IMG/VR virus record: IMGVR_UViG_3300030333_002944
Coordinates: 1 to 31,826 of that record
Strand: one strand, 5' to 3'
DNA length: 31,826 nt
Source of the DNA: a virus
The position numbers and the translations under genes are program-made. The stretch's first letter is position 1. Each line of letters starts with the position of its first letter. Of the stretch, positions 519-21,929 are shown piece by piece. The notes beneath the pieces were generated by a model. It ran no database searches and was not told the origin of the DNA. It saw only the letters and a list, made by a program, of their open reading frames with translations.

Positions 519-938
519 ATGACAATCAACCACAACCCTGACATTGAAGGCGAGGGCCTGGGCTCTCCCGAGTTTCCCAGCGCTCCAGTCAGTTCTGCCC
601 TGCTCTCAATCCTGTGGGCTGGCTTCGGGTTCGAGCCGCGCGACGAAGACATAGTGGCAGTGCTGACCTGCCCTGAGAATAACGGCCACCCAAACCATGA
701 CACGTCTGAGGCTACTCTCGCCTTTGTGCGTGAATCTCTCCTGACCTACGCCAAGAACTACGGACTGACCATGACCGAACAAGAACTGAACGACATCAAG
801 AACAACCTGCTCCGCTATCTGCTTGAGGATGTAGAGGGCAGATTCGACTACCTGACTGACAGGGAGCAATCGGTGGTCGGCAACCAGGAAACCTTCGATG
901 TTCTCCTGCAATCCATCAACAACCAAGGAGGCAAGTGA
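519..938 (+). CDS. Unknown acidic protein
   Basis: This 139-residue acidic protein matches no family I know. Residues 70-110 look helical (SLLTYAKNYGLTMTEQELN and onward). It ends in Gly-Gly-Lys because its last codons are GGA GGC AAG, a variant of the GGAGGTGAG junction used downstream. Its stop overlaps the next start as TGATG. The start ATG has a GAGGAC SD. It sits at the head of the first run of junction-linked small genes. Confidence 0.75.
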   Translation: MTINHNPDIEGEGLGSPEFPSAPVSSALLSILWAGFGFEPRDEDIVAVLTCPENNGHPNHDTSEATLAFVRESLLTYAKNYGLTMTEQELNDIKNNLLRYLLEDVEGRFDYLTDREQSVVGNQETFDVLLQSINNQGGK

Positions 939-1138
939 TGCCACGAACATTCCGACTCTCATTCGACATCTCAGCCGAGGCTGACCCCTCTGACCTTCTC
1001 GACCGACTCATCGACTTCCAGCAGCAACTGGTGGATGAGCTTGAGGAGGGCGAGGACGTCTTCGGCGAGCCCGTCCCCAACCATGCAACCGCCGACACTT
1101 GCAGTGTCGAGTACATCACAATCAAAGGAGGTGAGTGA
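938..1138 (+). CDS. Unknown small acidic protein
   Basis: The protein has 66 residues, with a beta-like N-terminus (PRTFRLSFDIS), an acidic helical middle (LLDRLIDFQQQLVDELEEGED) and a beta-like end. No family is recognised. The ATG at 938 shares its A with the upstream TGA and is preceded by GGAGGCAAGTG. A GTG three bases earlier is in frame, but the ATG has the better SD spacing of six bases. The C-terminus is Gly-Gly-Glu, encoded by the junction 14-mer that starts the next gene. Confidence 0.75.
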   Translation: MPRTFRLSFDISAEADPSDLLDRLIDFQQQLVDELEEGEDVFGEPVPNHATADTCSVEYITIKGGE

Positions 1139-1449
1139 TGCCACTCGCATACGCACCACCCGAGATGGCGTTCACTGTCAGTGTAGGCGGCAGCGATGCA
1201 CCTGTGTACCACGTCTACAACAATGGCAACATCAGCGACCGCATGACGTACTGGTACACGTTCGACGAGGCCGAGGGTGAGGACAACGAGTTCGACATCC
1301 GAAGCCTGCCCACATGGAGCACCAGGGCTGGGGTGATGGGCTCCCTTAGCGAACGCGCAAGGTTTCACGAGAGCTTCCTTCAAGAAGCCCTGGACCGTGG
1401 ACTGGTCCGCATCAACAACAACCAACTAATCACCGAAGGAGGTGAGTGA
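1138..1449 (+). CDS. Unknown small protein
   Basis: This 103-residue protein has a probable beta-rich N-terminal half (MAFTVSVGGSDAPVYHVY) and a helical C-terminal part with FHESFLQEALDRGLVRI. It matches no family I know. The start lies in an exact GGAGGTGAGTGATG junction and the gene ends in another, giving a Gly-Gly-Glu tail. The bases around its end (1431-1456) are identical over 26 nt to those at 2041-2066, more than the 14-mer alone. Confidence 0.75.
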   Translation: MPLAYAPPEMAFTVSVGGSDAPVYHVYNNGNISDRMTYWYTFDEAEGEDNEFDIRSLPTWSTRAGVMGSLSERARFHESFLQEALDRGLVRINNNQLITEGGE

Positions 1450-1730
1450 TGAACATGCCAGAAGGATTGAAGTATTGGACTGCTGACGAGGTAGCTGAAT
1501 GCCTCAGCGGCATCGGGCCTGACCTGTATCGCAAGCTGTGGGGCATCCTCAGTGCTGCCAAGAACCCGACACCACTTGGTGGAGACGGGTCCAACGGTAC
1601 GGTCGAGACACCGGACGGGCGCTTGGACGAGGACAACGACGACAAGGCTCCGCACTGGTGGGGCAAGCTCACAGCCTCAGAGCAAGCGACTATCCTTTAC
1701 GCGTACAACGCTGATTTTGGAGGTGAGTGA
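1449..1730 (+). CDS. Unknown small protein
   Basis: The protein has 93 residues. An N-terminal helical segment (TADEVAECLSGIGPDLYRKLWGIL) is followed by a Gly/Asp-rich linker at about residues 43-65, then a Trp-containing C-terminal segment (HWWGKLTASEQATILYAY). No family is recognised. It is flanked on both sides by the exact junction 14-mer and ends in Gly-Gly-Glu. Confidence 0.72.
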   Translation: MNMPEGLKYWTADEVAECLSGIGPDLYRKLWGILSAAKNPTPLGGDGSNGTVETPDGRLDEDNDDKAPHWWGKLTASEQATILYAYNADFGGE

Positions 1731-2059
1731 TGAGCGCCAACGTATTCCCCCATGCACTTACGAATGGAGCATGGTTTATCGGAATCCCCGACATCACCGA
1801 GGAAAACTACGAGAAGGTCTACATGCGATACGAGATGGCTCGCTTTGCCACTGAAGCTGTAGTCAGCGTGCCTGATGGCAACGGCAACATTGTCGGCAGG
1901 AAGATTACACTGGAAGAAGTGAAGGCCCACATTGGGTTGCAGGCAGGCGCACACTCACTCACTGACGCTGAGTGGAACGACAGACTCGTAGAGCACTTGT
2001 CCGACCGGGCAAAGCGGTCGCTTCGTTACGCCAAAGAGAACACCGAAGGAGGTGAGTGA
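1730..2059 (+). CDS. Unknown small protein
   Basis: This 109-residue protein is of mixed composition and matches no family I know. Residues 22-45 look helical (TEENYEKVYMRYEMARFATEA) and residues 78-100 form a second charged helix. It starts and ends in exact junction 14-mers and its last residues are TEGGE. The gene at 1138-1449 has the same last five residues, through the shared 26-nt stretch described under that gene. Confidence 0.74.
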   Translation: MSANVFPHALTNGAWFIGIPDITEENYEKVYMRYEMARFATEAVVSVPDGNGNIVGRKITLEEVKAHIGLQAGAHSLTDAEWNDRLVEHLSDRAKRSLRYAKENTEGGE

Positions 2060-2541
2060 TGAACATCTTCGTCCTTGACCGTTCACCCGGCATCGCAGCA
2101 CGCATGCAGTGTGACCGTCACGTAGTCAAGATGACGCTGGAGAGCGCACAGATGCTCTCCACTGCCGTCAACGAGTTGGGTGGGCAGACCCCTTACAAGT
2201 CTGCTCACCTTAACCACCCATGCTCTGTGTGGGCCCGTGAGACCCTCGGCAACTTCATCTGGCTCTATGACCACGGCATGGCCCTCGCAAAGGAGTACAC
2301 GCGCCGCTACGGCAAGGTACACAAGTCCGAGGCTGTCATCCAAGAGTGCATGGACCAGTGCCGAGACCTGTCCCTGTACAACCTCAAGCGCACGCCTCAC
2401 CCGCTGTGCATGCCTGACGAGTACAAGAGTGACGATGCCGTCGAATCGTATCGGCGGTTCTACATCGGAGAGAAGGCCAGCTTCGCCCGGTGGAACAAGA
2501 AAACAGAGCCGCCGCCCTGGTGGCCAGAAGGAGGTGAGTGA
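2059..2541 (+). CDS. Conserved phage protein, MNIFVLD family
   Basis: The 160-residue sequence belongs to a widespread but poorly characterised phage and bacterial family. Family marks are the start MNIFVLD, the block CDRHVVKMTLESAQMLS, then HLNHPCSVW, FIWLYDHGMALAKEYTRRYGK, and a C-terminal MPDEYK with YRRFYIGEKASFARW before PPPWW. The conserved His, Asp, Lys, Arg and Trp residues suggest an enzyme or nucleic-acid-binding protein. Homologues are, from memory, sometimes loosely named pyrimidine-dimer glycosylase, but I see no convincing DenV signature and leave the function open. The gene sits in the junction-linked array and ends in Gly-Gly-Glu. Confidence 0.82.
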   Translation: MNIFVLDRSPGIAARMQCDRHVVKMTLESAQMLSTAVNELGGQTPYKSAHLNHPCSVWARETLGNFIWLYDHGMALAKEYTRRYGKVHKSEAVIQECMDQCRDLSLYNLKRTPHPLCMPDEYKSDDAVESYRRFYIGEKASFARWNKKTEPPPWWPEGGE

Positions 2542-2801
2542 TGACCTTCACGCATCACTACGACGATAGCTCTGCGTGGCTGGAAGTGCCGATGGAGACA
2601 GTTCAGGAGTTGGGTGTCGAGTCGAAAATCACGCACAACTCTCGCGTCGATGGGACAACGGTGTACTTGAACTTCGACATCGAGGCGCTTGAGTTCATCT
2701 GGGCATACGAGAAGAAGCATGACCAGCCACTCAAGCGCAAGCTCAAGTACACGCCAGTGTCGTTCATCAACTACCTTGAGAGGTTCAAGCATGCCGTTTG
2801 A
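2541..2801 (+). CDS. Unknown small protein
   Basis: This 86-residue protein is of unknown family. The N-terminal half is beta-like with TFTHHYDDSSAWLEVPM, and the C-terminal half is rich in Lys and aromatic residues (IWAYEKKHDQPLKRKLKYTP). It starts in an exact junction 14-mer but does not end in one. Its last 11 bases overlap the start of the DUF1810 gene, so it is the last member of the first junction-linked run. Confidence 0.74.
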   Translation: MTFTHHYDDSSAWLEVPMETVQELGVESKITHNSRVDGTTVYLNFDIEALEFIWAYEKKHDQPLKRKLKYTPVSFINYLERFKHAV

Positions 2802-3198
2802 CCTCACCCGATTCCACGATGCCGTGGATGATGTGACGATGGCATCTGTCATTCGAGAGTTGTCTGCCGGCGAGAAGGAGAGCCACTGGATGTGGTTCAT
2901 CTTCCCGCAGGGCATGCGACCCAACTCAAGCCCAACGTCACAACGCTTCGCCATCCGTGACCTCGACCACGCCAGGGAGTTTCTCAAGCACGACCTGCTC
3001 GGGCCCCGCTTGGTCGAGTGTACTCGACTGGTGTTGACCCACCCCGACAAGACGGCGCTCGACATATTCGGCCACGTGGACTCCGAGAAGTTTCGTAGCT
3101 GTATGACCCTATTCGCTGAGGCATCCAAGCCTTTAGGGTCACGAGATCACCAATGCTTTCAGCAAGCCTTGGATGTTTTTTTCAACAAAAAGATTTGA
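2791..3198 (+). CDS. DUF1810 family protein
   Basis: The 135-residue protein matches the DUF1810 family over its whole length. Seen in order are an N-terminal FDLTRFHDAVDD, the hallmark SHWMWFIFPQG at about residues 30-40, SQRFAIRDLDHAREFL, LGPRLVECTRLVL, and the end motif DIFGHVDSEKFRSCMTLFAEA. The family's biochemical role is not established to my knowledge, so I assign none. I chose the ATG at 2791 because it has GAGAGGTT upstream and gives the usual family length. An upstream extension in the same frame is an antisense-like shadow of the previous gene. Its TGA stop lies inside the proposed -35 box of the next promoter. Confidence 0.88.
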   Translation: MPFDLTRFHDAVDDVTMASVIRELSAGEKESHWMWFIFPQGMRPNSSPTSQRFAIRDLDHAREFLKHDLLGPRLVECTRLVLTHPDKTALDIFGHVDSEKFRSCMTLFAEASKPLGSRDHQCFQQALDVFFNKKI

Positions 3199-3223
3199 CG
3201 CCAATACTTAATGTTGGTACTTT
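3195..3223 (+). promoter_or_regulatory. Sigma70-like promoter
   Basis: TTGACG (3195-3200) is followed after exactly 17 bases by TACTTT (3218-3223). The site lies in the short gap before the gene at 3268. The -35 box matches five of six consensus bases, while the -10 keeps the important T, A and final T. The next gene has an ACAGGAA SD, unlike genes within the array. Transcription was not observed, so this is inferred from sequence. Confidence 0.55.
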
Positions 3224-3267
3224 AGTGTCATACCTCCCTCACCCCGCAAACTAAACAGGAACACACT

Positions 3268-3552
3268 ATGCTTTGGAACACACGAGGTTCATCACTTCCC
3301 GCAGAGACCACCAAGGTCGGAATAGAGTTGATTCGAGAGATTGAAGATGAAGAGACTGGAGAGCTACTCGAAGAGCACATCATCGATGTGACTGGTCGCT
3401 TCTTTCCAGAAGACAACAGCGTAGGGCTTGGCTCGCACGTTGAGGTCATCTCCGCCTTCCGTACATTCCCCGGTCCACGCACCGAGGTTGAGCTTACAGA
3501 CGAGGAGGTTGACTCACTCGTTGACCTCCTGGAAGAGCAAAGGCGGTCATAA
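3268..3552 (+). CDS. Unknown acidic protein
   Basis: This very acidic 94-residue protein has IELIREIEDEETGELLEE in its first half and a C-terminal helix (ELTDEEVDSLVDLLEEQRR). Acidic small phage proteins can act as DNA mimics or inhibitors, but nothing specific points there. The ATG has an ACAGGAA SD and follows a sigma70-like promoter at 3195. A second promoter candidate begins 6 bases after its stop, so the gene may be its own transcription unit. Confidence 0.72.
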   Translation: MLWNTRGSSLPAETTKVGIELIREIEDEETGELLEEHIIDVTGRFFPEDNSVGLGSHVEVISAFRTFPGPRTEVELTDEEVDSLVDLLEEQRRS

Positions 3553-3557
3553 TGTGT

Positions 3558-3587
3558 CCGACATATTTTTTCCAAACGGCATACTTT
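3558..3587 (+). promoter_or_regulatory. Possible promoter with TACTTT -10
   Basis: CCGACA (3558-3563) and TACTTT (3582-3587) are separated by 18 bases in the 55-base gap before the gene at 3608. The -10 hexamer is identical to that of the promoter at 3195. Transcription would start at about 3594, leaving a very short leader that begins with the ACAGGAG SD. The -35 match is only four of six, so confidence is moderate. Confidence 0.4.
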
Positions 3588-3607
3588 ACAAACACAGGAG
3601 AACTAAA

Positions 3608-4045
3608 ATGAATGAATCTCGCTTCATTGAATACCCAAACGCCTGGTGCCCGCTGACGGACCCACACCAAGCCATGCTGGAGGCCGTCATCACCCTCGGC
3701 TTTGCCAAGGACGCCATCGAAAGGACGAATGAACACGTCTGCTCTTGGACGCGCGCAAGGATCGCAATCTCGGCACTCGAGTGGATTGTGAACCACTTGG
3801 AGTTGCACTTCAGTGAGGACTGGGAGGCGCACTGTGCTGGCAGGCAAGAGCTTGCGGCAAAGGTTCTCGCAGACCAAGCCATGGATGAGGACGCCTTCGT
3901 TCAGGCCGGCATCGCAGCGCGAGAGGCAATCAAGAACATCAAACAACAACCAACAGCAGTGATGGTTGAGGAGCACGACGAAGAACCAAAGAGCATGTCA
4001 GAACAGATCGTGCATGCTCAGAACACCAAAACAAACGAGCAGTAA
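3608..4045 (+). CDS. Unknown helical protein
   Basis: The 145-residue protein looks mostly helical, with a His/Trp-containing core (WIVNHLELHFSEDWEAHC) and an acidic, low-complexity tail from about residue 115. I recognise no family. The ATG at 3608 is preceded by AACACAGGAG. The longer frame upstream lies over the previous gene and is rejected as the start. The following gene starts one base after its TAA, at a GTG. Confidence 0.74.
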   Translation: MNESRFIEYPNAWCPLTDPHQAMLEAVITLGFAKDAIERTNEHVCSWTRARIAISALEWIVNHLELHFSEDWEAHCAGRQELAAKVLADQAMDEDAFVQAGIAAREAIKNIKQQPTAVMVEEHDEEPKSMSEQIVHAQNTKTNEQ

Positions 4046-4046
4046 A

Positions 4047-4619
4047 GTGAAAGCTTATACAATCAAAATCGAAGCCCTTGTTATCTCTGACTCCAGCATC
4101 GAGTCATCAACCCCTGAGCAGGTACTGGACCTGATCATCGACCACACCGATACCATGACTGCTACCATCGTACCGATGGTGTGCGGTGATGCAAGGGTCG
4201 CTGAGCCTGCCCCTCGCATGTCAATCGTCAGCGAGCCTCAGACCACCCACACTCCGTTGGATGTGCCAAACGAGCCTCCTGCTATTCAGGAGTTCTCTAA
4301 GAACGGTGAGAAGATTATCTCAACCAACCGCTCATGGGCACAGCAGAAGCCGCACGGCGTCATGGAGTTCTTCGACTCCAGCACTGGAGAAGTGTTTCAA
4401 ACATCGAAGCAGTGGCGATTCCGCCAGTCCACGGGCTGCCCGGAGTTCAAGTACGGCAGTCACGACTACGTAAGCTACTGCATGCGTCGTCCGATTGGAA
4501 CCTACGAGTCCAGGGACATCAAGAACCATGTGTACTTGACTCGCTCTGAGGCAACCGAGGTTCGTGACCACATCTACAGCGGACGCATGATCCGCAAGCA
4601 ACTGAAGGGAGGCGAGTGA
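4047..4619 (+). CDS. Unknown protein with GTG start
   Basis: This 190-residue protein is of unknown family. The N-terminal 30 residues are beta-like (KAYTIKIEALVISDSS), a Pro/Thr-rich linker spans roughly residues 50-85, and the C-terminal half contains FFDSSTGEVFQTSKQWRF and RRPIGTYESRDIKNHVYLT, suggesting a compact domain. GTG 4047 is the first in-frame start after the upstream stop, with only a weak GAG-type SD, so it is probably coupled to its neighbour. The gene ends with GGA GGC GAG TGA, another Gly-Gly-Glu tail from a variant of the junction motif. Confidence 0.7.
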   Translation: MKAYTIKIEALVISDSSIESSTPEQVLDLIIDHTDTMTATIVPMVCGDARVAEPAPRMSIVSEPQTTHTPLDVPNEPPAIQEFSKNGEKIISTNRSWAQQKPHGVMEFFDSSTGEVFQTSKQWRFRQSTGCPEFKYGSHDYVSYCMRRPIGTYESRDIKNHVYLTRSEATEVRDHIYSGRMIRKQLKGGE

Positions 4620-4624
4620 CTATC

Positions 4625-5449
4625 ATGGCAAACAAACTTCACAACATCGCATCTAAGATCCAAAAGCTCATGACCCTCGCCGAGCGTGGCGAGGGCAACG
4701 AGGCCGAGGTGGCTGCTGCTACCGCTCAGCGCCTCATGCGCGAGCACGCCATCTCGATGGCCACCCTCAAGGAGACAGAGATCCTTGAGCAAGACCCGCT
4801 CATGCAGCTTGCCTTTGAGGTGGGCCAGGCTTCGTGGAAGATTCGTCTCGCCTGGGCGATTGCAGAGCACTGCCAAGTTGCGGCGCTTCGTTCTTGTCGG
4901 TGGACCTCAAGTCACCCCATCACCAAGGAAAGCATGGGCAAGCGCAAGCGACGAGTGTTTGCGTGGGGATACGGTCACTCTTCAGACCTTGAGGTGTGGG
5001 AGTACCTGTACGAGGTGGCGCTGCGCCAGATTGAGTCCGAGGCCAGGAGGTACGCCAGCACCCTCAAGGGTGACCTGTTCAACATCGATGGTCACGTGTT
5101 GACCAAGCGCGAGGCGATGAACCGCTTCCGTGCTGGTGCTGTACAGGGCCTCAGCCACAAGCTGTACTGGCAGCGCGAGAGGGCCAAGGCTGATGCCCAG
5201 GCTGAAGCTGAGTGCGCTGCCGAGGCCAGCCCCGACGCGAATGAGGCTGAGGAGTTGCTACTTGCAGCGCAGGCGCTTGATAGCCGTTGTAAGCGTGCTG
5301 ACGAGTACATGCGCTCCAAGGTCCGGAAGCTGGGCAGCGGCTACCGTGGCGGTGTGGCGGGCAGCAAGGATGGAGTCAAGGCCGGGAAGAGCATCGCCAT
5401 CAACAAGGGCGTGGCTGCTGCGGCTGGCCGCAAGATGCTGGGGTGCTGA
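4625..5449 (+). CDS. DUF2786 domain protein
   Basis: The 274-residue protein begins with a DUF2786-type domain: KIQKLMTLAERGEGNEAEVA followed by AQRLMREHAISMATL (about residues 10-50). The middle and C-terminal regions contain long Ala/Glu-rich helices (about residues 175-220) and a Gly-rich segment near YRGGVAGSKDGVKAGKS. The family occurs in phages and bacteria and has no settled function. ATG 4625 lies 12 bases past GGAGG. A GTG at 4616 is in frame but too close to the SD. A metalloprotease-like gene is found two genes downstream. Confidence 0.8.
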   Translation: MANKLHNIASKIQKLMTLAERGEGNEAEVAAATAQRLMREHAISMATLKETEILEQDPLMQLAFEVGQASWKIRLAWAIAEHCQVAALRSCRWTSSHPITKESMGKRKRRVFAWGYGHSSDLEVWEYLYEVALRQIESEARRYASTLKGDLFNIDGHVLTKREAMNRFRAGAVQGLSHKLYWQRERAKADAQAEAECAAEASPDANEAEELLLAAQALDSRCKRADEYMRSKVRKLGSGYRGGVAGSKDGVKAGKSIAINKGVAAAAGRKMLGC

Positions 5450-5450
5450 C

Positions 5451-5795
5451 ATGCAACTGTACCGAGTCGAAATGACATCCGGGCTGAGTGTGAATGGAAC
5501 CGATGTAGTCTACCGCTACTTTAGTTCCTTCGCGCGGGCCCGGTCCTTCTGCAACAAAGCCATCCGCAAGTCGCTGGCTCGCTGGAAACAGTATGACCAT
5601 GTGAAGCGGCTGGCCGATGTGATGTGGGGCGAGGAGATCGCCATCGTATCTGTCAAGACCCCCAAGCTGCCGACAAAGACCATGTTTCTCCTGATGCTCA
5701 ATCATGGAGATGACATCCCATTATCCTTAGAAATTGTCGAGCAGTGGAACCCCCAAGACAAATGGCACAAGCCACAACCGAGAGGTGAAGAATGA
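5451..5795 (+). CDS. Unknown basic protein
   Basis: This 114-residue basic protein has an N-terminal beta-like stretch (QLYRVEMTSGLSVNG), an aromatic/Arg-rich middle (YRYFSSFARARSFCNKAIRK) and a C-terminal part with KLPTKTMFLLMLNHG. No family is recognised. It starts one base after the upstream TGA. Its 3' end, AGAGGTGAAGAATGA, supplies the SD and overlaps the next ATG by four bases, a looser form of the junction seen elsewhere. Confidence 0.72.
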   Translation: MQLYRVEMTSGLSVNGTDVVYRYFSSFARARSFCNKAIRKSLARWKQYDHVKRLADVMWGEEIAIVSVKTPKLPTKTMFLLMLNHGDDIPLSLEIVEQWNPQDKWHKPQPRGEE

Positions 5796-6409
5796 GTCGC
5801 GATTGGATTCAGGACAGCAAGTACAACTTGCACGGCATGAACGTAATGCTGGCCGCTGAGAAGATGTGCAAGTCTTCTCACTGGCTGGATGCGCTCAACG
5901 CTGGCCGAGCCCAGCGAGGCCTGGACAGCAAGACCGACTGCCAGAGTGCAGCCCTCCTGTGGAAGCGAACAAAGCGCTCTAAGGGTGCCTGTGGTGACGC
6001 TGGCATCCGGTTCCGCATTCGCAACATCGAGGGCTGGCACTGCAGCGGTAGGGGTGGCCCGAGCTACGGCGTCACCCTGTCTGCTCGCAGAAGCACAAGC
6101 CGGGGTAGCCTACTGATGACGATGCTCCATGAGATTGTCCACGTCGTCCACCTTGCGGACATGCGTGCGCCCATCGTTGAGGGCGTTCGCCGCCCACACG
6201 GCATGGACTACAACCTGATGCTGTGCCACATGGCACGCGCTCTCTGGGGGTTTCCATTCAACCCGGAGCAGTCAGGCTTCTCGGTCGGGCAGGGATACCG
6301 CCCGTCTCGGATGCTGGAGGAATGGCTCCATGAACAAATCAAGTCCGGCAGCCCCCGTGTGAGTCGTTGGCTCGCTGGCCTTGAGCACAACAATGGAGGA
6401 GGTGAGTGA
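5792..6409 (+). CDS. HExxH metalloprotease-like protein
   Basis: The 205-residue protein has a zincin-like active site: HEIVH at residues 113-117 followed by HGMDYN at 136-141. The third ligand would be H136, about 19 residues on, resembling SprT-like or other minimal zincins. The preceding strand (YGVTLSARRST) and helix (RGSLLMTMLHEIVH) fit that fold. Two Cys residues (C50, C67) are not in a clear zinc-ribbon pattern. The substrate is unknown; SprT-type proteins act on DNA-bound proteins, but the resemblance here is only motif level. The gene ends in Gly-Gly-Gly-Glu through the exact junction 14-mer. Confidence 0.78.
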   Translation: MSRDWIQDSKYNLHGMNVMLAAEKMCKSSHWLDALNAGRAQRGLDSKTDCQSAALLWKRTKRSKGACGDAGIRFRIRNIEGWHCSGRGGPSYGVTLSARRSTSRGSLLMTMLHEIVHVVHLADMRAPIVEGVRRPHGMDYNLMLCHMARALWGFPFNPEQSGFSVGQGYRPSRMLEEWLHEQIKSGSPRVSRWLAGLEHNNGGGE

Positions 6410-6741
6410 TGGACTACAAACCGTTGGATTTCATTCAAAGAGGTCGAGACATATTCAACCACAACTACGGACATGCGTCATGCCCTTGGTGTGGTTTCAA
6501 CATCATGGAGGCAGACGCTCTTGTCGATGCCGGTGAGAGAGAAACGGATCACACATGCCTGCTCCAAGTCATCGAGGACACTGACGAACAAGGAGTCTGT
6601 CGGTTGTCGATGCAGTGGGAGTGCTTGAAGTGCCATAAGAATGGAATCTTCGGGGTGATGGGACCGCGCACGGATGACGACATGGTCCGCAAACAACGAG
6701 ACGCGATGTACGAAAAGTATCGCAGTGAGGGAGGTGAGTGA
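6409..6741 (+). CDS. Unknown zinc-ribbon-like protein
   Basis: This 110-residue protein has two cysteine pairs, CPWC at about residues 25-28 and CLKC at about 64-67, separated by a central segment with HTCLLQVIEDT. The layout fits a zinc ribbon that could bind nucleic acid or protein. The C-terminus is charged and helical (DDDMVRKQRDAMYEKYRSE). It starts and ends with exact junction 14-mers and opens the second run of junction-linked genes. Confidence 0.76.
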   Translation: MDYKPLDFIQRGRDIFNHNYGHASCPWCGFNIMEADALVDAGERETDHTCLLQVIEDTDEQGVCRLSMQWECLKCHKNGIFGVMGPRTDDDMVRKQRDAMYEKYRSEGGE

Positions 6742-7007
6742 TGGGCTCATGGATTATCAACAAGAAACAAAGCGGCCACCACACTATCAAGCGTTCGGCA
6801 GAGGCGGACTGTAACGAGAGTTACCTGCCCATGGTCGCTGACGTGTACGGCACGGACGAAGAAGCGCGGCTCATCGCAGCGGCACCCGACCTGCTGGCTG
6901 CGATGAAAGACGTGGTGGCATCGGCAGAGGCGGACTGTCCCGGTAGCTTGGCAAACGCCATTCTCGCAGGGCAGGAAGCAATCTGGAAAGTGAAAGGAGG
7001 TGAGTGA
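6741..7007 (+). CDS. Small phage protein with ARLIAAAPDLL motif
   Basis: The 88-residue protein contains EEARLIAAAPDLLAAMKDVV, a motif found in many short phage proteins of unknown role, then a helix ending in AIWKVKGGE. The first 35 residues look like a separate beta-like segment. Two other genes in this run (7186 and 7621) have related helix pairs, so the three may be divergent paralogues. Exact junction 14-mers flank the gene. Confidence 0.77.
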   Translation: MGSWIINKKQSGHHTIKRSAEADCNESYLPMVADVYGTDEEARLIAAAPDLLAAMKDVVASAEADCPGSLANAILAGQEAIWKVKGGE

Positions 7008-7186
7008 TGGCTAAGAAGACATACGACGTAAAGATTCTGGCGAAGGTGACACTGGACGATGATGCCCGTCCACCCGATGTAGTTCTGTTCGATGCCAATG
7101 AGGTGTTGGACCGCATCAAGGAGAACGGCAAGGTCTATGGCGTTGAGTACACAACAGATGACACGACCCGTGAAGGAGGTGAGTGA
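7007..7186 (+). CDS. Unknown small protein
   Basis: This 59-residue protein consists of a beta-like N-terminus (KTYDVKILAKVTLDDD), a short helix (DANEVLDRIKENGK) and a final strand (VYGVEY). No family is recognised. It lies between two exact junction 14-mers and ends in EGGE. The regular strand-helix-strand pattern and tight packing support it as real despite its size. Confidence 0.7.
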   Translation: MAKKTYDVKILAKVTLDDDARPPDVVLFDANEVLDRIKENGKVYGVEYTTDDTTREGGE

Positions 7187-7386
7187 TGAACTACCGTGCT
7201 GTATGCTTTGAGTTGCTTGCAGAGCGCTCAACCCTAAAAGCCAAGAACAAGATGCTTCTGGCTGCAACCACACACGCCCTTGAGGATCTTCAGGCTCTTC
7301 AAACCGGACAGTGCACCATTGATGAGATCAGCGGAGTTTTGATTGAACTTCGATGTGCCATCACCAAAGCCAAGGGAGGTGAGTGA
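7186..7386 (+). CDS. Small helical protein, possible AAAPDLL paralogue
   Basis: The 66-residue protein is largely helical. MLLAATTHALEDLQAL and a closing helix ending in AITKAKGGE resemble, in layout, the LIAAAPDLLAAM and AIWKVKGGE parts of the gene at 6741. This similarity is by eye and weak. Both ends are exact junction 14-mers. Confidence 0.7.
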   Translation: MNYRAVCFELLAERSTLKAKNKMLLAATTHALEDLQALQTGQCTIDEISGVLIELRCAITKAKGGE

Positions 7387-7634
7387 TGACCAACTTTTAC
7401 TTAGAGCTTATTGAGGTCGTTAACGAGACGTTCAAGGAAAGTTACGATCGGCGCACAGCAGAAGCCGAATCAGAGCCGTTAGACGGTGAGGATCGAATAC
7501 GAAGCTACGTCTGCATAGAAGTAGGGGAAGCGATCCGCATGAAGCTCACAGACAAGTACCAGAAGCGTGCAATCAAATACGAAAAAGCGCTAATGGAAAA
7601 ACTTAGGAAGGAGGTGAGTGATGGGAATCAGTAG
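7386..7634 (+). CDS. Unknown small charged protein
   Basis: This 82-residue charged helical protein is of unknown family, with FYLELIEVVNETFKESYDRR near the start and ALMEKLRKEVSDGNQ at the end. It is the key exception in the array. The 14-mer at its end is read one frame off, as GAG GTG AGT GAT G, giving EVSDGNQ before a TAG 14 bases inside the next gene. The junction is kept although the Gly-Gly-Glu tail is lost. Confidence 0.72.
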   Translation: MTNFYLELIEVVNETFKESYDRRTAEAESEPLDGEDRIRSYVCIEVGEAIRMKLTDKYQKRAIKYEKALMEKLRKEVSDGNQ

Positions 7635-7920
7635 ATACGAGAAAGACCTCAACGAACGCGAAGAGGCCAACCAACGGTTCGCCTTGGGTGACGAGGGCTA
7701 CCGCCTGTTTAAGGCAGCGCCTGAGCTACTGGAGGTGATGGATGAGATCCTGAAGTTCCAAGTCAAGAACGATTGGATGGACCTTCCGATTTGGGTTCGC
7801 GCCAAGAACGCAGTCGCCAAAGCCAAGGGACAAGAAGTCCAAGAACTCGACGAGGACGGCATCCCGCTGCCTGGTCCCCTGCCGTTTCCAAACGACTGGC
7901 CACCACAAGGAGGTGAGTGA
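7621..7920 (+). CDS. Small phage protein with FKAAPELL motif
   Basis: The 99-residue protein contains EGYRLFKAAPELLEVMDEIL and, later, VRAKNAVAKAKG, matching in order the ARLIAAAPDLLAAMKDVV and AIWKVKG segments of the gene at 6741, so it is probably a paralogue. The last 30 residues are acidic and Pro-rich (DGIPLPGPLPFPNDWPPQ). ATG 7621 follows an exact 14-mer and overlaps the previous gene by 14 bases. The gene ends in Gly-Gly-Glu. Confidence 0.75.
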   Translation: MGISRYEKDLNEREEANQRFALGDEGYRLFKAAPELLEVMDEILKFQVKNDWMDLPIWVRAKNAVAKAKGQEVQELDEDGIPLPGPLPFPNDWPPQGGE

Positions 7921-8267
7921 TGGACCAGTATGCAAGAGCGAAGCAAGTGGATTGCCCTGTGTGCGGAGCCTACAAGGGTAAGCCTTGCCAAGACATGCGT
8001 GAGGGGTGGTGGAGAGAGGAGAACCAGCGATCCTCGCTACCTGCCCTCAAGCGGCCACACAAACAACGGGTTGCCAAAGCCGATGGAGGGATGAGTAAAA
8101 AGAGGGTGATTGAGGGCCAGTTGATTCAATGGCACTTGCCTACGACCAAATACGATATTTGCCCGACATGCAACCAAAAGACGATTGTTGGGGGCCAAGG
8201 AAAAGACCGCTACTGTACCAACACAGAATGTAAAACAGCGTTCTTTGACATTGTAGAGAGGAGGTGA
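7920..8267 (+). CDS. Two zinc-finger-like motifs, unknown role
   Basis: This 115-residue protein has two Cys clusters. The first (residues 11-50) is CPVCGAYKGKPC followed by KRPHKQR, a pattern common in small phage and actinobacterial zinc proteins. The second is CPTCNQKT followed by YCTNTECK at about residues 82-106, a zinc ribbon. It could be a fusion of two small modules; an internal MSKKRV at about residue 58 marks the boundary. The gene ends IVERR because the 14-mer is read in the third frame (AGG AGG TGA), so its stop lies inside the motif, three bases before the next ATG. Confidence 0.76.
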   Translation: MDQYARAKQVDCPVCGAYKGKPCQDMREGWWREENQRSSLPALKRPHKQRVAKADGGMSKKRVIEGQLIQWHLPTTKYDICPTCNQKTIVGGQGKDRYCTNTECKTAFFDIVERR

Positions 8268-8270
8268 GTG

Positions 8271-8693
8271 ATGTCAGACAAGGTAGTCAAAATCAATCTC
8301 AAGCGGGCGCTCATCAATCGACTGACAGCGGCTCCTAAGGTTGATTCCTCTCCATTGGCCACGCACCTACTCGCGAAGCCACCGCAGAGCCGTGACCTGC
8401 CAGATGGTGAGGGCAGCCCCGCAAAGCGACTGAAGCAGTACCAGAATCAGAAGAATGGTAGCAGATCGCTGGATATGGCTTCACACATACCCAATCGCAA
8501 GCGTAGACACCGACACGCAGAGTCAACAGACATCGAACGTGCGGTTCACATGTCTTACGACGGCAACGGTAACCCATTTGGGACTGACTTCGAGGATACG
8601 ATTGGCGGCCTCCGAGACGTTACCAACGCAATGTCCTACACCTGGGAGGAGTCCGACCGCATGTTTCACTCCCTGTGGAATGGAGGTGAGTGA
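8271..8693 (+). CDS. Unknown basic protein
   Basis: The 140-residue protein has a basic N-terminus (KVVKINLKRALINRLTAAPK), a disordered-looking basic middle (IPNRKRRHRHAES) and an acidic, aromatic C-terminus. It may bind nucleic acid, but no family is recognised. ATG 8271 comes directly after the 14-mer; the GTG at 8268 is in frame but less favoured. The gene ends WNGGE through another exact 14-mer. Confidence 0.72.
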   Translation: MSDKVVKINLKRALINRLTAAPKVDSSPLATHLLAKPPQSRDLPDGEGSPAKRLKQYQNQKNGSRSLDMASHIPNRKRRHRHAESTDIERAVHMSYDGNGNPFGTDFEDTIGGLRDVTNAMSYTWEESDRMFHSLWNGGE

Positions 8694-9145
8694 TGCGAGG
8701 ACCAAGTATCATGCTTGAAACCATTCATGTCGAAGCGTTCAAGCACACCACCTTCAAAAGTCTCATCAAGGAGCATTACGCTCATCTAAAGAAGACTTCA
8801 GACAACACTGAGAGCGGTAGGCTGTGGGATGAAAGGAACTACCTGCTCGCCCTTTTCTCTACCATGACGAGCACAACTGCAAAGGAACTGACCATCAGCG
8901 ACAGCACGCTGAGCGTTGATGGGATGTTGAAGCTGGGTCGCCTTCTCATCAAGATTATCGAGGAAGAGAAGATCCCAGAAGCAGCGGAACTCACGGACTT
9001 GGCTGAGACAAGGGGCGAGAGGTTGATGGCGCAATGGCTCACTGAGCAGTGGCCGTATCTATTGAAACACCTCAAGTCCGCTACGAAGAGAATAAAGAAA
9101 ATCAGGTGGGAGTTGATGAAGGCTCCGCCTACGTGGGAGGAGTGA
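8693..9145 (+). CDS. Unknown helical protein
   Basis: This 150-residue, mainly helical protein has LGRLLIKIIEEEKIPEAAEL in the middle and a basic C-terminus (LKHLKSATKRIKKIRWELMK). No family is recognised. ATG 8693 is in an exact 14-mer, and a second in-frame ATG lies seven codons in. The end is GGGAGGAGTGATG, a shortened junction that still overlaps stop and start as TGATG but gives Trp-Glu-Glu in place of Gly-Gly-Glu. Confidence 0.74.
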   Translation: MRGPSIMLETIHVEAFKHTTFKSLIKEHYAHLKKTSDNTESGRLWDERNYLLALFSTMTSTTAKELTISDSTLSVDGMLKLGRLLIKIIEEEKIPEAAELTDLAETRGERLMAQWLTEQWPYLLKHLKSATKRIKKIRWELMKAPPTWEE

Positions 9146-9321
9146 TGGACCTGAGTGACGCACGCTTCCACCGCAAGGTCATCCCCTGGGCGAAGCTGGA
9201 GGCCGAGGGGGTAGAGGCACGCAAGGTGATGAAGGAAGCACAGAAGCAGAGAATGTGGGTTCTGGCCCGCAAAGCCGAGCACCGATGGGTGAATCAGAAA
9301 CTCAAAGAGGCTCGGTCTTAA
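9145..9321 (+). CDS. Unknown small basic protein
   Basis: The 58-residue basic protein is probably one or two long helices (AEGVEARKVMKEAQKQRMW and onward), rich in Lys, Arg and Trp. I do not recognise it. It starts by TGATG overlap with the previous gene after GGGAGGAG. It is the last gene of this transcription run, and a promoter candidate follows within 20 bases of its stop. Confidence 0.68.
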   Translation: MDLSDARFHRKVIPWAKLEAEGVEARKVMKEAQKQRMWVLARKAEHRWVNQKLKEARS

Positions 9322-11432: not shown

Positions 11433-12500
11433 ATGTGGATACAAAATTGCAAGAACGCACGCATCACGACGATAGCGTCCGATCTTCAGTACAGCCGAGG
11501 CAACGGTAGTTCGATCTACCCCTGCCCATCATGTGGCCTGCTTGAGCGAGGGTCCAAAGACAAGAAGCGAGGACCAGTAGGCTTCACTCGCAGCGAGATC
11601 GCGTGGAAGTGCCATGCCTGTGGAGCCAAGGGTGACGTTGTAGACTTCGTCGCTCAGCACTTCTTTCAGCAGCCTGTGCGTAATCTCAGCAAAGAGCAGA
11701 CGGCGTCTGTGCGGGACTGGTTCGCTGAGAAGGGCTACTGCACTCCATCAGGCGTACCGTCTCACATTCAGCCCGACGTGAAGAAGATGCCGACTATGAG
11801 GCCAGCGCCCACAGCGGGATACCTCAGGCCACCAGAGGATGAGCTTCATGACTTGTGGGCCAACACGCTCACCGTAGAGGCTGCCATGGAGCAGCCTGTC
11901 CGATACGCCGATCAACTGACTCGGTGGTTTATCAACAGGCGATTCGCCCCCAAGATCATGGACATGACGGACAGTATCCGCATCATGCCTCTCCCGAACG
12001 ACTACAAGTACCCTGGATGGTTCCCGCACCAGTGGGGCGGCATCTACCGTGTCGCAGCCCCATGCTTCGAGCCAGACGGGACGTTCGCCAGCATCCACTG
12101 TCGCAGCGTCAGCTTTGCCAAGGGGCGACAGCCATCGGGATCTAAGACTCGCTGGCCAACTGGATACGAGGCCGGTGGATTGCTGATGGCGAACCCTGCC
12201 GCACGCAAGCTCATGCGAAGCAAGTCAGTCGATGATCTCGAAGGCTTGTTGATCTGTGAGGGCATTACCGACTACATGAGAGCCTGCGAGCAAGCACATC
12301 GTGAGAGTATGAACCTTGCAATCGTGGCTGGAACGTCCGGCAGCTACAAAGCGCTTGCTAAGATGGACATCCCCACTGACCTAAAGGTTTTTATTGCTAC
12401 AGATTCAGATGACTCCGGCGATGACTATGCGGTAGAAATCTGCGATCACCTTCCCCAACACACACTGTACCGCGTACCCCTGGAGTCCAACGATGGCTGA
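11433..12500 (+). CDS. DNA primase, zinc finger plus Toprim
   Basis: The 355-residue protein begins with a zinc-binding primase domain: CPSC at residues 31-34 and CHAC at 60-63, followed by KGDVVDFV. It ends with a Toprim domain: LLICEGITD (Glu276), then FIATDSDD with Asp324 and Asp326, the usual metal-binding acids. It would make RNA primers for phage DNA replication. There is no helicase domain of its own. The next gene, overlapping by eight bases, encodes a VapE-type ATPase, so the pair probably acts as primase and helicase. The AGGAG SD is five bases from the ATG and can be masked by the upstream leader. Confidence 0.9.
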   Translation: MWIQNCKNARITTIASDLQYSRGNGSSIYPCPSCGLLERGSKDKKRGPVGFTRSEIAWKCHACGAKGDVVDFVAQHFFQQPVRNLSKEQTASVRDWFAEKGYCTPSGVPSHIQPDVKKMPTMRPAPTAGYLRPPEDELHDLWANTLTVEAAMEQPVRYADQLTRWFINRRFAPKIMDMTDSIRIMPLPNDYKYPGWFPHQWGGIYRVAAPCFEPDGTFASIHCRSVSFAKGRQPSGSKTRWPTGYEAGGLLMANPAARKLMRSKSVDDLEGLLICEGITDYMRACEQAHRESMNLAIVAGTSGSYKALAKMDIPTDLKVFIATDSDDSGDDYAVEICDHLPQHTLYRVPLESNDG

Positions 12501-13827
12501 CCTTGATGAAGTGCTCGCCGCTGGAGAGCGACGACTTGCTGACTTGCTGAGCGCTGCTGAATCTGATCACTGCATCAATGAGCCGAATCAACCCCAACAA
12601 GAGGTGGAGCTTCCTGAGAACGTCGGAGACATCAATGTCACCAACATGCTCGACCAATACATGGACCGGGAAGGCAACCCCAGCGGACGGCCCCGTAAGA
12701 ACAAGAACAACCTGTACATCATCCTTCGACGGGACCGCAGATGGCGTGGCCGAGTCTGGTTGAACGAGTTCACCAATGTCCTGAAGATCGACGACCGTGA
12801 CTACAGGGACACTGATGACACGCGCATCGCTCTGTGGGTCTCTCGTGCCTACGGGCTGGAGTACGGGAATGAGGCCATCAGTTCTACGGTGCAACTGATC
12901 GGCGAGGAGAACAAGCGCAACCCTCTTACTGAGTGGTTGGATGGCATCGAGTGGGATGGCGTACCTCGACTCGCGTCTTGGATCGTGGAGGCGACCGACT
13001 GCCTGGACACCAAGCTGAACAAGAAGATGGCGGAGAAGTGGCTGATTCAGGCGATTGCGAGAGCCTACAGCCCAGGCTGCAAGGCTGACTGTGTGCTCAT
13101 CCTCGCGGGCGAGCAGGGCGCTGGTAAGAGCACTCTGTTCCGCACGCTGGCCACTGACGAGTACTTCGCGGACACGCCGCTCGACATCGGCTCTGCAAAC
13201 TCGTACAGCCAGATTGCTCGCGCCTGGATCTATGAGGTCGCGGAGTTGGACTCAGTACGACGTTCCGCTAACAGTGCGACCAAGGCTTTTCTCAGTGCTC
13301 AGGAAGACAACTTCCGGCCAGCTTACGGTCGTCACGCAATCACCCTAAAGCGTCACGTTGTCTTTGCCGGTACGACTAATGAGTCTCAGTTCATCAATGA
13401 CATGACGGGGTCGCGCCGGTACTGGCCCATCAAGGTGAGTGAGATCAACCTACACTGGGTCAGAGAGAACCGAGACCAACTGTGGGCCGAGGCCATCGTC
13501 GCATTCAAGAACGGTGAGACATGGTATCTGGACAAGGAAGCTGATGAAGATCGTCACAACTCCAGCTTGATCTACCGTCAAGATGACCCCTGGGCCGAGC
13601 CGATATCGGACTACCTTATGATTCAACGAGGCCCGGTAACGATGAACCTCATCATGGAGGAGGGTTTGCAGATCGACCGTGGACGTATGAGCCGTAGAGA
13701 CGAGTTGCGTATTGCTGAGATACTGAGAGAGTTGGGATACGAAAAGAAGAGAATGAGAATAGGTGGTAAAAAGAAATACGTATGGGCAAAAAATGAAGTA
13801 CTTAAATTAAGTAATAAGGAAGCATAA
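12493..13827 (+). CDS. VapE (VirE) family P-loop helicase
   Basis: The 444-residue protein carries the virulence-associated E domain. Visible are NPLTEWLDGIEWDGVPRL (about 143-160), Walker A GEQGAGKST at 206-214, Walker B-like IYEVAELD at 246-253, FAGTTNE at 291-297 and an arginine-finger-like GSRRYWPI at 306-313. In phages this family is the replicative or initiation helicase and sits beside the primase, as here. The C-terminus has a winged-helix-like basic region (RRDELRIAEILRELGYEKKRM). The start has GGAG seven bases upstream and lies inside the primase 3' end. The stop shares a base with the next ATG. Confidence 0.9.
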   Translation: MADLDEVLAAGERRLADLLSAAESDHCINEPNQPQQEVELPENVGDINVTNMLDQYMDREGNPSGRPRKNKNNLYIILRRDRRWRGRVWLNEFTNVLKIDDRDYRDTDDTRIALWVSRAYGLEYGNEAISSTVQLIGEENKRNPLTEWLDGIEWDGVPRLASWIVEATDCLDTKLNKKMAEKWLIQAIARAYSPGCKADCVLILAGEQGAGKSTLFRTLATDEYFADTPLDIGSANSYSQIARAWIYEVAELDSVRRSANSATKAFLSAQEDNFRPAYGRHAITLKRHVVFAGTTNESQFINDMTGSRRYWPIKVSEINLHWVRENRDQLWAEAIVAFKNGETWYLDKEADEDRHNSSLIYRQDDPWAEPISDYLMIQRGPVTMNLIMEEGLQIDRGRMSRRDELRIAEILRELGYEKKRMRIGGKKKYVWAKNEVLKLSNKEA

Positions 13828-15194
13828 TGAGTAAAGTAGCAATGGGTGGCGGGGTATTCCTCGCGCCTGGATATCAAAATGAAGAGTCAGTGCTGAGCAG
13901 ATTTCAGATTCGCAATCCCGAGTACGACATGGCGATGGGTATGAGGAAAAACGGCAAGTACGTGCCCATTCCTGACAAGCATATCAACGCATGCCACCGC
14001 ATCCCCCTGGACCACCCCTGGGGCGGCGGCTTGGCTGTGCCCCGTAAGGCAGCGACACAGATGGATCTCGGCAACATTATCGACAAGAGAACCGCACCAG
14101 ACGCCAGTCTGTTGACCCTTGCCAAGGGGTTCTCGCTCCGAGACTACCAGCAGAGCGCCCTCGATGCCTGGCTTAAGAATCAAGGCGAGGGTGTAATCGT
14201 CGCCCCATGCGGTGCCGGTAAGACAGCCATTGGCGTTTCAGCGATGACCAAGTTCAACACCAAGGCGCTAGTCTTGGTTCATACCAACGACTTGGCGGTG
14301 CAGTGGATGAATCGCATTCGGTCAATGCTCAACGAGGAGGCAACTCAGTATGGCGCGGGTAAGAAGGATGACTCTGGACGGATTGTCGTCGCGACTTTCC
14401 AGACTCTTGAACGAATGTCATTCACAGAGCGCTACCAGTTCGGGCGTCAGTTCGGACTGTGTATCGTTGATGAAGCACACCACGTTCCAGCGCACACGTT
14501 TTGCTCTGTCATGTTCTGCATGCCAGCAAGACACAGGCTCGGATTGACGGCCACACCCGAGCGTCCTGATGGGCTGACATCCATTCTATGGTGGCACTTC
14601 GGTCAGCCGGTCTACGAGATCACCAACGCGCAGTTGACTGCGTCTGGGCACGTTGTCGCGCCAACAATTGAGTGGCTATTCACTGACTACAGCGGCCCAC
14701 CCAATCGAGTCGATTGGTCGAAGCTGATTACTAAGATGACTACAGACGATCAACGCAACGCAAAGATTATCAATCGCATCGTAAAGGCATGCGACAATGG
14801 CCGACAGATTCTCGTGCTCTCCGACCGTGTAGATCACTGCATGAAGATCGCAAAAGTGCTTCAATCACAGTCGATTGTCGCAGAGCCACTTGTTGGGAAG
14901 ATGACTAAAAAACAAAGAGCAGAGGTTTTAGAACGTGCAGATAACAGAGAGATTCAAGTCGTATGTGCCACAACGGTCGCGGATGAAGGCCTTGATCTTC
15001 CATCACTCGACACTGTTGTACTCACAACTCCGACGAAAGCTATGGGCCGAATACAGCAAAGGATTGGCCGTGTCATGCGACCCCACCCACAGAAGCAAGA
15101 TCCGATTGTTATTGATTGCATTGACGATAGCGGAGCAATGCATGGACTCGCTCGGAAACGCCAAAGACTCTACACCAAGCTTGGGTGCTCCTAA
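13827..15194 (+). CDS. SF2 DEAH-box DNA helicase
   Basis: The 455-residue protein is a superfamily 2 helicase of the XPB/UvsW-like type. Motif Q-like FSLRDYQQSALDAW precedes motif I APCGAGKT (126-133). Motif II is VDEAHH (214-219), motif III GLTATPER (239-246), and motif VI QQRIGRVMRP (410-419), with ATTVADEGLDLPSLD before it. The first 95 residues are a separate N-terminal region without a known domain. It probably remodels branched DNA during replication and recombination. It is joined to the VapE gene by TAATG with AAGGA upstream. Confidence 0.9.
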   Translation: MSKVAMGGGVFLAPGYQNEESVLSRFQIRNPEYDMAMGMRKNGKYVPIPDKHINACHRIPLDHPWGGGLAVPRKAATQMDLGNIIDKRTAPDASLLTLAKGFSLRDYQQSALDAWLKNQGEGVIVAPCGAGKTAIGVSAMTKFNTKALVLVHTNDLAVQWMNRIRSMLNEEATQYGAGKKDDSGRIVVATFQTLERMSFTERYQFGRQFGLCIVDEAHHVPAHTFCSVMFCMPARHRLGLTATPERPDGLTSILWWHFGQPVYEITNAQLTASGHVVAPTIEWLFTDYSGPPNRVDWSKLITKMTTDDQRNAKIINRIVKACDNGRQILVLSDRVDHCMKIAKVLQSQSIVAEPLVGKMTKKQRAEVLERADNREIQVVCATTVADEGLDLPSLDTVVLTTPTKAMGRIQQRIGRVMRPHPQKQDPIVIDCIDDSGAMHGLARKRQRLYTKLGCS

Positions 15195-15728: not shown

Positions 15729-16628
15729 ATGAATGAGAATCTACCCACTATCGGCAGCAGCAGCATCGGTGCAATCCTGGGACTGTCGCCATGGAGCAGT
15801 CCATGGGATGTATGGGCACGAGCACACGGCCTGACTGAAAGCTCCTCGTCGGCAGCGACACAGCGGGGCCACATTCTTGAGCCGGCCATCGGTGCTCACT
15901 ATGCCCACCTGAACAACGTCCAGATCGAGAAGGGACCAGAGTACGAGGCCGCTCCAATCATCGGGCCAGAGGAGTGGATGCATGCGCGCCCAGACTTTTT
16001 TGTGAAGTCGGAAGACGCTCGCTGGCTGCTTGAGATCAAGTCGACGCGCAAATTCGACTACAGGTGGGAGGGCGTGCCACCATACTACCTGACCCAGTGT
16101 ATCTGGCAGATGGCCGTGACGGATGATGAGCGATGCGACCTTGCGGCCTTCGCAACGATGAACGATGAATACCGATCCTTTAAGATTTACCGTGATGCAT
16201 CAGTCGAATCTAAGATGATCGACTATGTCAGGGACTGGTATGACCGGCATATTCGAGAGGGTAAGCCCCCAGAGGTGGACGGCTCCACCGCATGCTCCAG
16301 ATCCCTCGCCAAGCTATTTGAGCAGGAGTCGAAGGAGTTCATCGAGCCGTCCGAGGCTCACCTCGACTTGGCCATGGAACTCAAGGAGGTCCGCCGCATG
16401 AGCGCCGAGTTAGACGAAAAGAAGCGGATGCTTGAGAATAAAATAAAAGAAGAAATCGGCACCGCATATGGTATCAGTGGTGTAGCTACGTGGTCCCAGA
16501 GCAAGCCACGTAGTCGATTCGATCGCGCTTCATTTGAGGCCGATCACCCAGACCTCGCCAAGAACTACGTTAAGGTTGGCGAGCCAACGCGAACATTCAG
16601 GTTTTCATTCACAGGAGAGAAAAAATGA
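15729..16628 (+). CDS. YqaJ-type viral exonuclease
   Basis: The 299-residue protein is a PD-(D/E)XK nuclease of the YqaJ viral recombinase type. Motifs are SSIGAILGLSPWSSPWDVW at the start, RGHILEP with Glu51, ARPDFF with Asp89, LLEIKST with Glu102 and Lys104, and YYLTQCIWQM with Gln123. The C-terminal third contains a coiled coil (ELKEVRRMSAELDEKKRML) and a small extra domain. It would degrade one strand of broken DNA so that the RecT protein from the overlapping next gene can anneal it. It begins the divergent, probably repressor-controlled operon. Confidence 0.88.
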   Translation: MNENLPTIGSSSIGAILGLSPWSSPWDVWARAHGLTESSSSAATQRGHILEPAIGAHYAHLNNVQIEKGPEYEAAPIIGPEEWMHARPDFFVKSEDARWLLEIKSTRKFDYRWEGVPPYYLTQCIWQMAVTDDERCDLAAFATMNDEYRSFKIYRDASVESKMIDYVRDWYDRHIREGKPPEVDGSTACSRSLAKLFEQESKEFIEPSEAHLDLAMELKEVRRMSAELDEKKRMLENKIKEEIGTAYGISGVATWSQSKPRSRFDRASFEADHPDLAKNYVKVGEPTRTFRFSFTGEKK

Positions 16629-17443
16629 GCACAGCAATCCATCCAGCACATCACTTCAGGAATGTCGTAGAGTCCAAGGCCTCTGACTTCCTCCAGGCAA
16701 TGGCAGGTACGGAAGAAGGGGCAAAGGCAGCAGGCCGTGTAGCCCTGGCATTCCGTCAGGCTGCACAGACCAATGACCGTCTATATGGGTGTGACCCCGC
16801 ATCAGTAGCCCAGGCCGTCGCCCTCTCAGCGATGACAGGCTTGATGCCCGGTGGGCCACTTCCAGATGTCTACCTGCTCCCACGAGGCAAAAGCCTACAG
16901 TGGCAGGTATCTCACCGAGGCTTCTCTAAGCTCGCCGCTCGGAGCGGTGTACGCCTCCGCACAAAGGCGGTGTTTGAGAGCGACACTTTCCATGTCATTG
17001 AGGGGACGGAGCCGAAGCTGGAGCACGTTCCTGACCTCTCGGCAGAGCAGTCCTGGGACACCCTGGTGGCAGTCTATGTGGTCGCCCACTACAAGGACGG
17101 CAGCAAGGACTTCGTCGTAATCCGCAAGGCCGACATCGAGAAGCGTCGGGCAAACTCGGACTCTTACAAGCGCAACAAGAACCAGTCTCCGTGGGGTCAG
17201 TGGCCCATCGAGATGGCGCTTAAGACTGGGCTCCGGTATGCGTTTGCTCGCGGCATCGTAAGCATGGATGACACAACCACCAGCGCTTATGAGCATGATG
17301 GCATCCAAGATGCGTCTACCGAAGAACTCAATGTGGTAGACATGAATGAGGCCCCAGAGGTTAACACCATGAACGTATTGTCTGATCAGCTTGATGAGCT
17401 TGTTCAACAGACGGACGCAGAAGAATCATTGCTTGAGGATTAA
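16625..17443 (+). CDS. recT: RecT-family single-strand annealing protein
   Basis: The 272-residue protein matches the RecT family: AFRQAAQTNDRLYGCDPASV, LSAMTGLMPGGPLPDVYLLPR, LQWQVSHRGFSKLAARSG, and the C-terminal SPWGQWPIEMALKTGLRYA. RecT proteins coat single-stranded DNA and anneal complementary strands. The tail after residue 225 is acidic and probably disordered. AGGAGA upstream of the ATG and ATGA overlap with the exonuclease stop show a translationally coupled exonuclease-annealase pair, as in rac and lambda Red systems. Confidence 0.9.
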   Translation: MSTAIHPAHHFRNVVESKASDFLQAMAGTEEGAKAAGRVALAFRQAAQTNDRLYGCDPASVAQAVALSAMTGLMPGGPLPDVYLLPRGKSLQWQVSHRGFSKLAARSGVRLRTKAVFESDTFHVIEGTEPKLEHVPDLSAEQSWDTLVAVYVVAHYKDGSKDFVVIRKADIEKRRANSDSYKRNKNQSPWGQWPIEMALKTGLRYAFARGIVSMDDTTTSAYEHDGIQDASTEELNVVDMNEAPEVNTMNVLSDQLDELVQQTDAEESLLED

Positions 17444-21928: not shown

Positions 21929-21929
21929 A

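Follow-up and report, generated by a model that had tools for sequence, protein, structure and literature searches.

A 14-base translation junction at the borders of exchanged genes in an uncultured phage lineage

In this work, we analyzed a window of 31,826 bases, part of a virus record of 54,943 bases, and we describe a 14-base sequence, GGAGGTGAGTGATG, that recurs at the joints between its small accessory genes. The comparison of related phages shows that genes are exchanged at copies of this 14-mer: gains, losses and rearrangements of whole genes fall almost exactly on the joint, so that the lineage offers a clear test case for the origin of mosaicism in phage genomes. We consider it probable that the 14-mer acts both as a translational coupler and as a uniform seam between single-gene cassettes, which would most likely be joined through annealing by the phage's own RecT and YqaJ proteins. 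The element would be a natural standard part for operon building, and it provides a simple rule for finding accessory-gene cassettes, nearly all of them without known function, in uncultured phages.

The 14-mer in the window and in its lineage

The window encodes a Toprim protein, a VapE-like helicase/primase and a ResIII helicase (11433-15194, plus strand), a replication block of fixed, conserved order without modules, together with a RecE/YqaJ-type recombination exonuclease (15729-16628, plus strand; PF09588, phrog_434) and the ssDNA-annealing protein RecT (16625-17443, plus strand; PF03837, phrog_148). The major head protein is encoded in the same record, outside the window. RecT is found across the lineage, and RecT plus the exonuclease in most relatives whose sequence extends to that region. 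Among 50,697 named phage records, neither the DNA of the record nor the Toprim protein had a match, and the VapE-like helicase matched cultured phages only below 60% identity; one scan of bacterial genomes for a host returned only remote helicase relatives (31-35%).

The 14 exact copies lie between 1127 and 8695, in the 0.9-9.2 kb region, all on the plus strand and all at gene junctions. This agrees with the initial annotation, whose coordinates mark the first letter of the ATG, 11 bases past the first base of each copy. The copies occupy 1127-1140 (stop of gene 938-1138, start of 1138-1449), 1438-1451 (stop of 1138-1449, start of 1449-1730), 1719-1732, 2048-2061 (preceding a cassette gene for a pyrimidine dimer DNA glycosylase at 2059-2541, plus strand; Pyr_excise, PF03013), 2530-2543, 6398-6411, 6730-6743, 6996-7009, 7175-7188, 7375-7388, 7610-7623, 7909-7922, 8260-8273 and 8682-8695. 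Four variants had also been listed, all of which were recovered with differing quality. Two are real near-copies on the plus strand, namely GGAGGCAAGTGATG at 927-940 (two mismatches, at the start of gene 938-1138) and GGAGGCGAGTGACT at 4608-4621 (three mismatches, preceding gene 4625-5449), the latter a synteny breakpoint in L133 and L131. The variant at 5792, AGAGGTGAAGAATG, is weak, and that at 9135-9147 (plus strand), GGGAGGAGTGATG, is a shortened form at the start of gene 9145-9321, on the right border of the variable region and at a recurrent breakpoint (9140). The rest of the record contains no further copy on either strand, the pattern read backwards has no match in the whole record, and 100 dinucleotide shuffles give an expectation of zero copies. 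Past the 14 bases, the one feature common to the copies is a weak preference for purines at -1 to -3.

Within the 14-mer, GGAGGTGA is an eight-base Shine-Dalgarno (SD) sequence, complementary over its whole length to the usual 3' terminus of 16S rRNA, UCACCUCC. The following GTGATG contains two candidate start codons, and the TGA stop of the upstream gene overlaps the ATG; 12 of the 14 copies overlap the upstream stop codon in this way, with the SD inside the upstream gene. The upstream reading frames read GGA GGT GAG TGA (Gly-Gly-Glu-stop) in frame 0 at 12 of the 14 copies, the same number as first counted. Two genes use the other frames, also as previously reported: gene 7386-7634 crosses the copy at 7610 in frame +1 (EVSDGNQ-stop), and gene 7920-8267 stops at the TGA in the SD part of the copy at 8260 (ERR-stop). 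With its SD, two starts and overlapping stop, the 14-mer would most naturally be read as a device for translational coupling.

A profile search with the VapE-like protein retrieved 80 related loci. The 14-mer was present in 37 of the 38 related records, which were searched whole, with one orientation per record and no match to the backwards pattern. In 554 kb of non-redundant lineage sequence (the relatives plus the window), plus-strand sites with 0, 1, 2 and 3 mismatches numbered 144, 54, 37 and 54, against 0, 0, 2 and 22 on the other strand; these counts indicate that the 14-mer is a discrete element rather than one extreme of a broad range of SD sequences. No exact copy was found in 1.02 Mb of other phage contigs. 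An ORF of at least 40 aa is opened by 139 of the 144 exact copies. Where upstream genes cross a copy (126 cases in the lineage), they do so in frame 0 at 115, in +1 at four and in +2 at seven, and single-base variants keep the SD, stop and start signals (G10>A converts the stop to TAA, and G8>A is also seen; A11 is never altered). The use of three frames and the conservative nature of the tolerated changes support the earlier suggestion that selection acts on the nucleotide sequence.

Two simpler causes were rejected. A protein-level origin in the Gly-Gly-Glu tail conflicts with the other frames used by two window genes and by 11 of the 126 lineage copies, and with the glycosylase gene, which has the module only within the lineage. 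A genome-wide SD preference, which according to the initial annotation would weaken the idea of a module, is ruled out by the absence of the 14-mer elsewhere in the record, whose core and structural genes have SDs of varied sequence, among them TAATG and TGATG couplers that lack the 14-mer.

When up to two mismatches are allowed, a copy stands at the start of 219 genes of the lineage and at the end of 138. The module-started genes belong to 111 families, 69 of them singletons, and their partners are hardly ever the same; in its six module-linked cases, the glycosylase family is followed by a different neighbour each time. The 14-mer was found at none of the 50-odd glycosylase homologues outside the lineage and thus belongs to the junction, not to the gene. 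Only a handful of 99 cassette representatives have a Pfam match, and the idea that the cassettes are defence or counter-defence genes was rejected, as these 99 gave only methyltransferase-type PADLOC matches and six Pfam families. The commonest cassette family (16 members, IAAAPDLLAAM / FKAAPELLEVM motif) has two members in one array, at 6741-7007 and 7621-7920 of the window.

Two to three exact copies at gene starts are also present in four phage contigs for which no relation to the lineage was detected (L067, L069, L043 and L009), and the 14-mer therefore arises or spreads as a coupler outside the lineage too. A further contig, L117, was missed by the helicase search; it has a late gene (76%) and a cassette (86%) in common with the lineage, and three exact copies.

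Exchange of genes at copies of the 14-mer

Pairwise comparison gives isolated blocks of homology that run from module to module. Window positions 1437-1732 correspond to L140 2084-2379 (82%), positions 6397-6743 to L149 1658-2004 (92%), with both block ends at window modules and the left one at the copy 6398-6411, and positions 7375-7621 to L155 1072-1318 (97%), the left end being the copy 7375-7388. L142 and L173 provide an isolated block (97%) that starts and ends at copies, and one cassette is found at different places and among different neighbours in L146 (574-867) and L149 (3760-4053; 93%). The edges of homology pile up, on the left mostly at offset -1 or 0 of a copy and on the right at 13, its last base. 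At the position of the copy at 7610, L155 has GGAGGTGAATGAGTGATG, and the stop lies within it.

Furthermore, 11 precise gene insertions or deletions are bordered on each side by a copy (two mismatches or fewer), and a copy is also present at the empty joint, with an overlap of about 12-26 nt. L131 and L077 match on both flanks of one gap, in which L131 has one extra gene and one extra copy. Junctions conserved between diverged relatives are almost absent, and only five alignments of 65-93% identity in the lineage span an exact copy. A role in cassette exchange, first offered without data, is thereby borne out: the gene content between copies varies in the relatives, the seam is fixed, and an identical short sequence stands at the borders of the exchanged modules. 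In a separate case, the homology of window gene 3608-4045 to L077 and L178 ends inside the gene, at 3946-3949; since an exact copy starts in L077 and L178 where this homology ends, the gene has two alternative ends.

Gene boundaries in general might attract breakpoints, and we therefore compared classes of junction. When a relative shares one flank of an exact copy, homology continues to the far side in only about 8-9% of cases. The ratio of spanning to single-flank hits, which we take as an effect size and not as an independent test because the gene calls were our own simple ones and the comparisons share ancestry, was 0.083 for exact and 0.097 for near copies, against 0.339 (strong SD) and 0.422 (weak SD) for the other coupled junctions of the zone, 0.641 and 0.825 for its spaced junctions, 0.853 for random zone positions and 0.873-0.944 in the core (coupled strong-SD, 0.935); near-copies beyond the zone border gave 0.066, unlike the rest of the core. 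Exact copies were spanned less than other zone junctions in 15 genomes, the opposite being seen in 3. As to breakpoints in the zone, 46% have an exact copy within 5 nt, compared with a mean of 7% and a maximum of 16% for shifted copies, and the proportion is 65.5% when the blocks have an identity of at least 90%. The breakage effect is partly regional, as other gene starts of the zone also break more often than those of the core, and 106 of 365 partners at a broken edge (29%) lack a copy within two mismatches.

Candidate mechanisms

Taken together, these results suggest the following model. A start overlapping a stop would let the ribosome that finishes one small gene begin the next. With the same part at both ends of an accessory gene, the gene plus one copy would form a cassette, and any cassette could be added, removed or swapped with the order still working, whatever the neighbour. 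The likely route would be strand annealing at the 14-16 shared bases by the phage YqaJ exonuclease and RecT, and selection for translation would keep the seam intact. Annealing at shared bases fits the pattern of exchange, the single copies at empty joints, the frame-blind joins (7610 compared with L155) and the nearby RecT/YqaJ genes, from which it may be proposed that the 14-mer itself drives recombination. A length of 14-16 bp is short for annealing, as the minimal homology quoted for RecA- and Red-dependent recombination is about 30 bp (PMC2327257). The broken-edge partners that lack a copy (29%) and the regional share of the breakage effect also count against the model. We hold more tentatively, at slightly less than an even chance, that the lineage has an active gene-shuffling architecture, in which a universal, frame-tolerant 14-bp part would be both translation junction and RecT/YqaJ annealing site and any small gene flanked by it would be pluggable anywhere in the operon.

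The main rival explanation invokes selection only: illegitimate joins would occur anywhere, survivors would be those with a working stop, SD and start, and the 14-mer would be the best coupler of the lineage and no recombination part. This is possible, but we find it rather doubtful. The usual view of phage mosaics is indeed one of illegitimate exchange near gene boundaries (PMC3029335), the 14-mer comes close to an ideal coupler of SD plus TGATG, whose tolerated variants retain the translation signals, and the four unrelated contigs also have their two to three exact copies at gene starts. However, homology spans the other coupled strong-SD junctions of the zone four times as often (0.339 versus 0.083), and core couplers of the same genome do without the 14-mer sequence. 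Selection alone also sits poorly with homology edges that are base-sharp at the outer limits of the 14-mer, with the one copy that remains at the joint after precise insertions and deletions, and with the frame-blind join at 7610, where the gene reads into its neighbour.

A purely translational element similar to the start-associated sequences (SAS) of mycobacteriophages, either a coupler or the target of a phage translation regulator, with the gene turnover of the region unrelated to it, seems improbable. Such an element would agree with copies that sit almost without exception at start codons and share one orientation, but it gives no account of homology ending at copy edges or of cassettes bounded by copies on both sides in different places, and the spanning ratios of the junction classes disfavour it. 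A dedicated, integron-like site for a site-specific recombinase would suit one-gene cassettes arrayed in one orientation with a uniform seam, but is very unlikely, as no integrase or other site-specific recombinase was detected among the scanned proteins (part of the record's genes) and the 14-mer is, by inspection, a plain translation signal without second arm or inverted repeats.

The choice between annealing at the seam and selection alone touches an old dispute on phage mosaics, which sets rare homologous exchange at short boundary sequences against illegitimate joining filtered by selection. The lineage offers one exact sequence at more than 100 junctions, rarely crossed by homology, beside a RecT/exonuclease pair, and the two views therefore make different and testable predictions here.

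Comparison with described systems

Integron cassettes are single genes arrayed in one orientation and swapped as units, with attC sites and an integrase. The module array is alike in its single genes, orientation and unit swapping; attC sites were not seen, nor was an integrase among the scanned proteins (part of the genes), and inspection of the 14-mer shows no paired arms. In T4-like phages, the promoter-stem-loop cassettes named PeSLs are repeated regulatory elements said to mediate modular shuffling. Both PeSL and 14-mer are repeated regulatory elements, but the PeSL is a transcriptional promoter/terminator element and not a translation junction. In the open-access literature, no published description of the 14-mer was found.

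The nearest described element is the SAS of cluster K mycobacteriophages, and the nearest described process is recombination at boundary sequences. As described in PMC3203893, the SAS (GGGATAGGAGCCC) is a 13 bp asymmetric repeat with an SD core, present in 11-19 copies, mostly in one orientation, at the starts of non-structural genes of different families; it lies 3-7 bp before the start codon, mostly after gaps of more than 50 bp, and some copies include the upstream stop. The proposed role is in translation, and no exchange at the SAS is described in the sections consulted. Both are thus oriented repeats with an SD core, immediately at the starts of non-structural genes of varied families. 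They differ in sequence (GGGATAGGAGCCC versus GGAGGTGAGTGATG), in content, the 14-mer holding stop, SD and start whereas the SAS precedes the start codon and mostly lacks the upstream stop, and in setting, as 12 of the 14 window copies overlap the upstream stop codon. The SAS parallel drawn in the initial annotation is fair, although its statement that the SAS does not include the stop was too strict and the gaps before most SASs make the likeness looser (PMC3203893).

For lambdoid phages, short conserved boundary sequences have been proposed at which homologous recombination between gene modules produces mosaicism (as cited in PMC3029335 and PMC2327257), and such a sequence is said not to be seen at most mosaic borders (PMC3029335, PMC2327257). 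The 14-mer is likewise a short sequence shared between gene modules, but in this lineage a single sequence is found at dozens of borders. As a similar case, the nin region of lambda was rejected, as it has no repeated 14-mer or junction and no match to GGAGGTGAGTGATG closer than four mismatches.

Two minor observations concern other parts of these genomes. A late gene on the minus strand of the window (21341-22072) has a peptidase-like C-terminal motif (HSTQVDKWSAGCQVF) and possibly encodes an endolysin, with no Pfam match. Finally, the distant relatives L194 and L195, as well as L200, have another repeated start sequence, AGGAGAAACAACATG, three to four times, which is perhaps another dialect of start-associated sequence.
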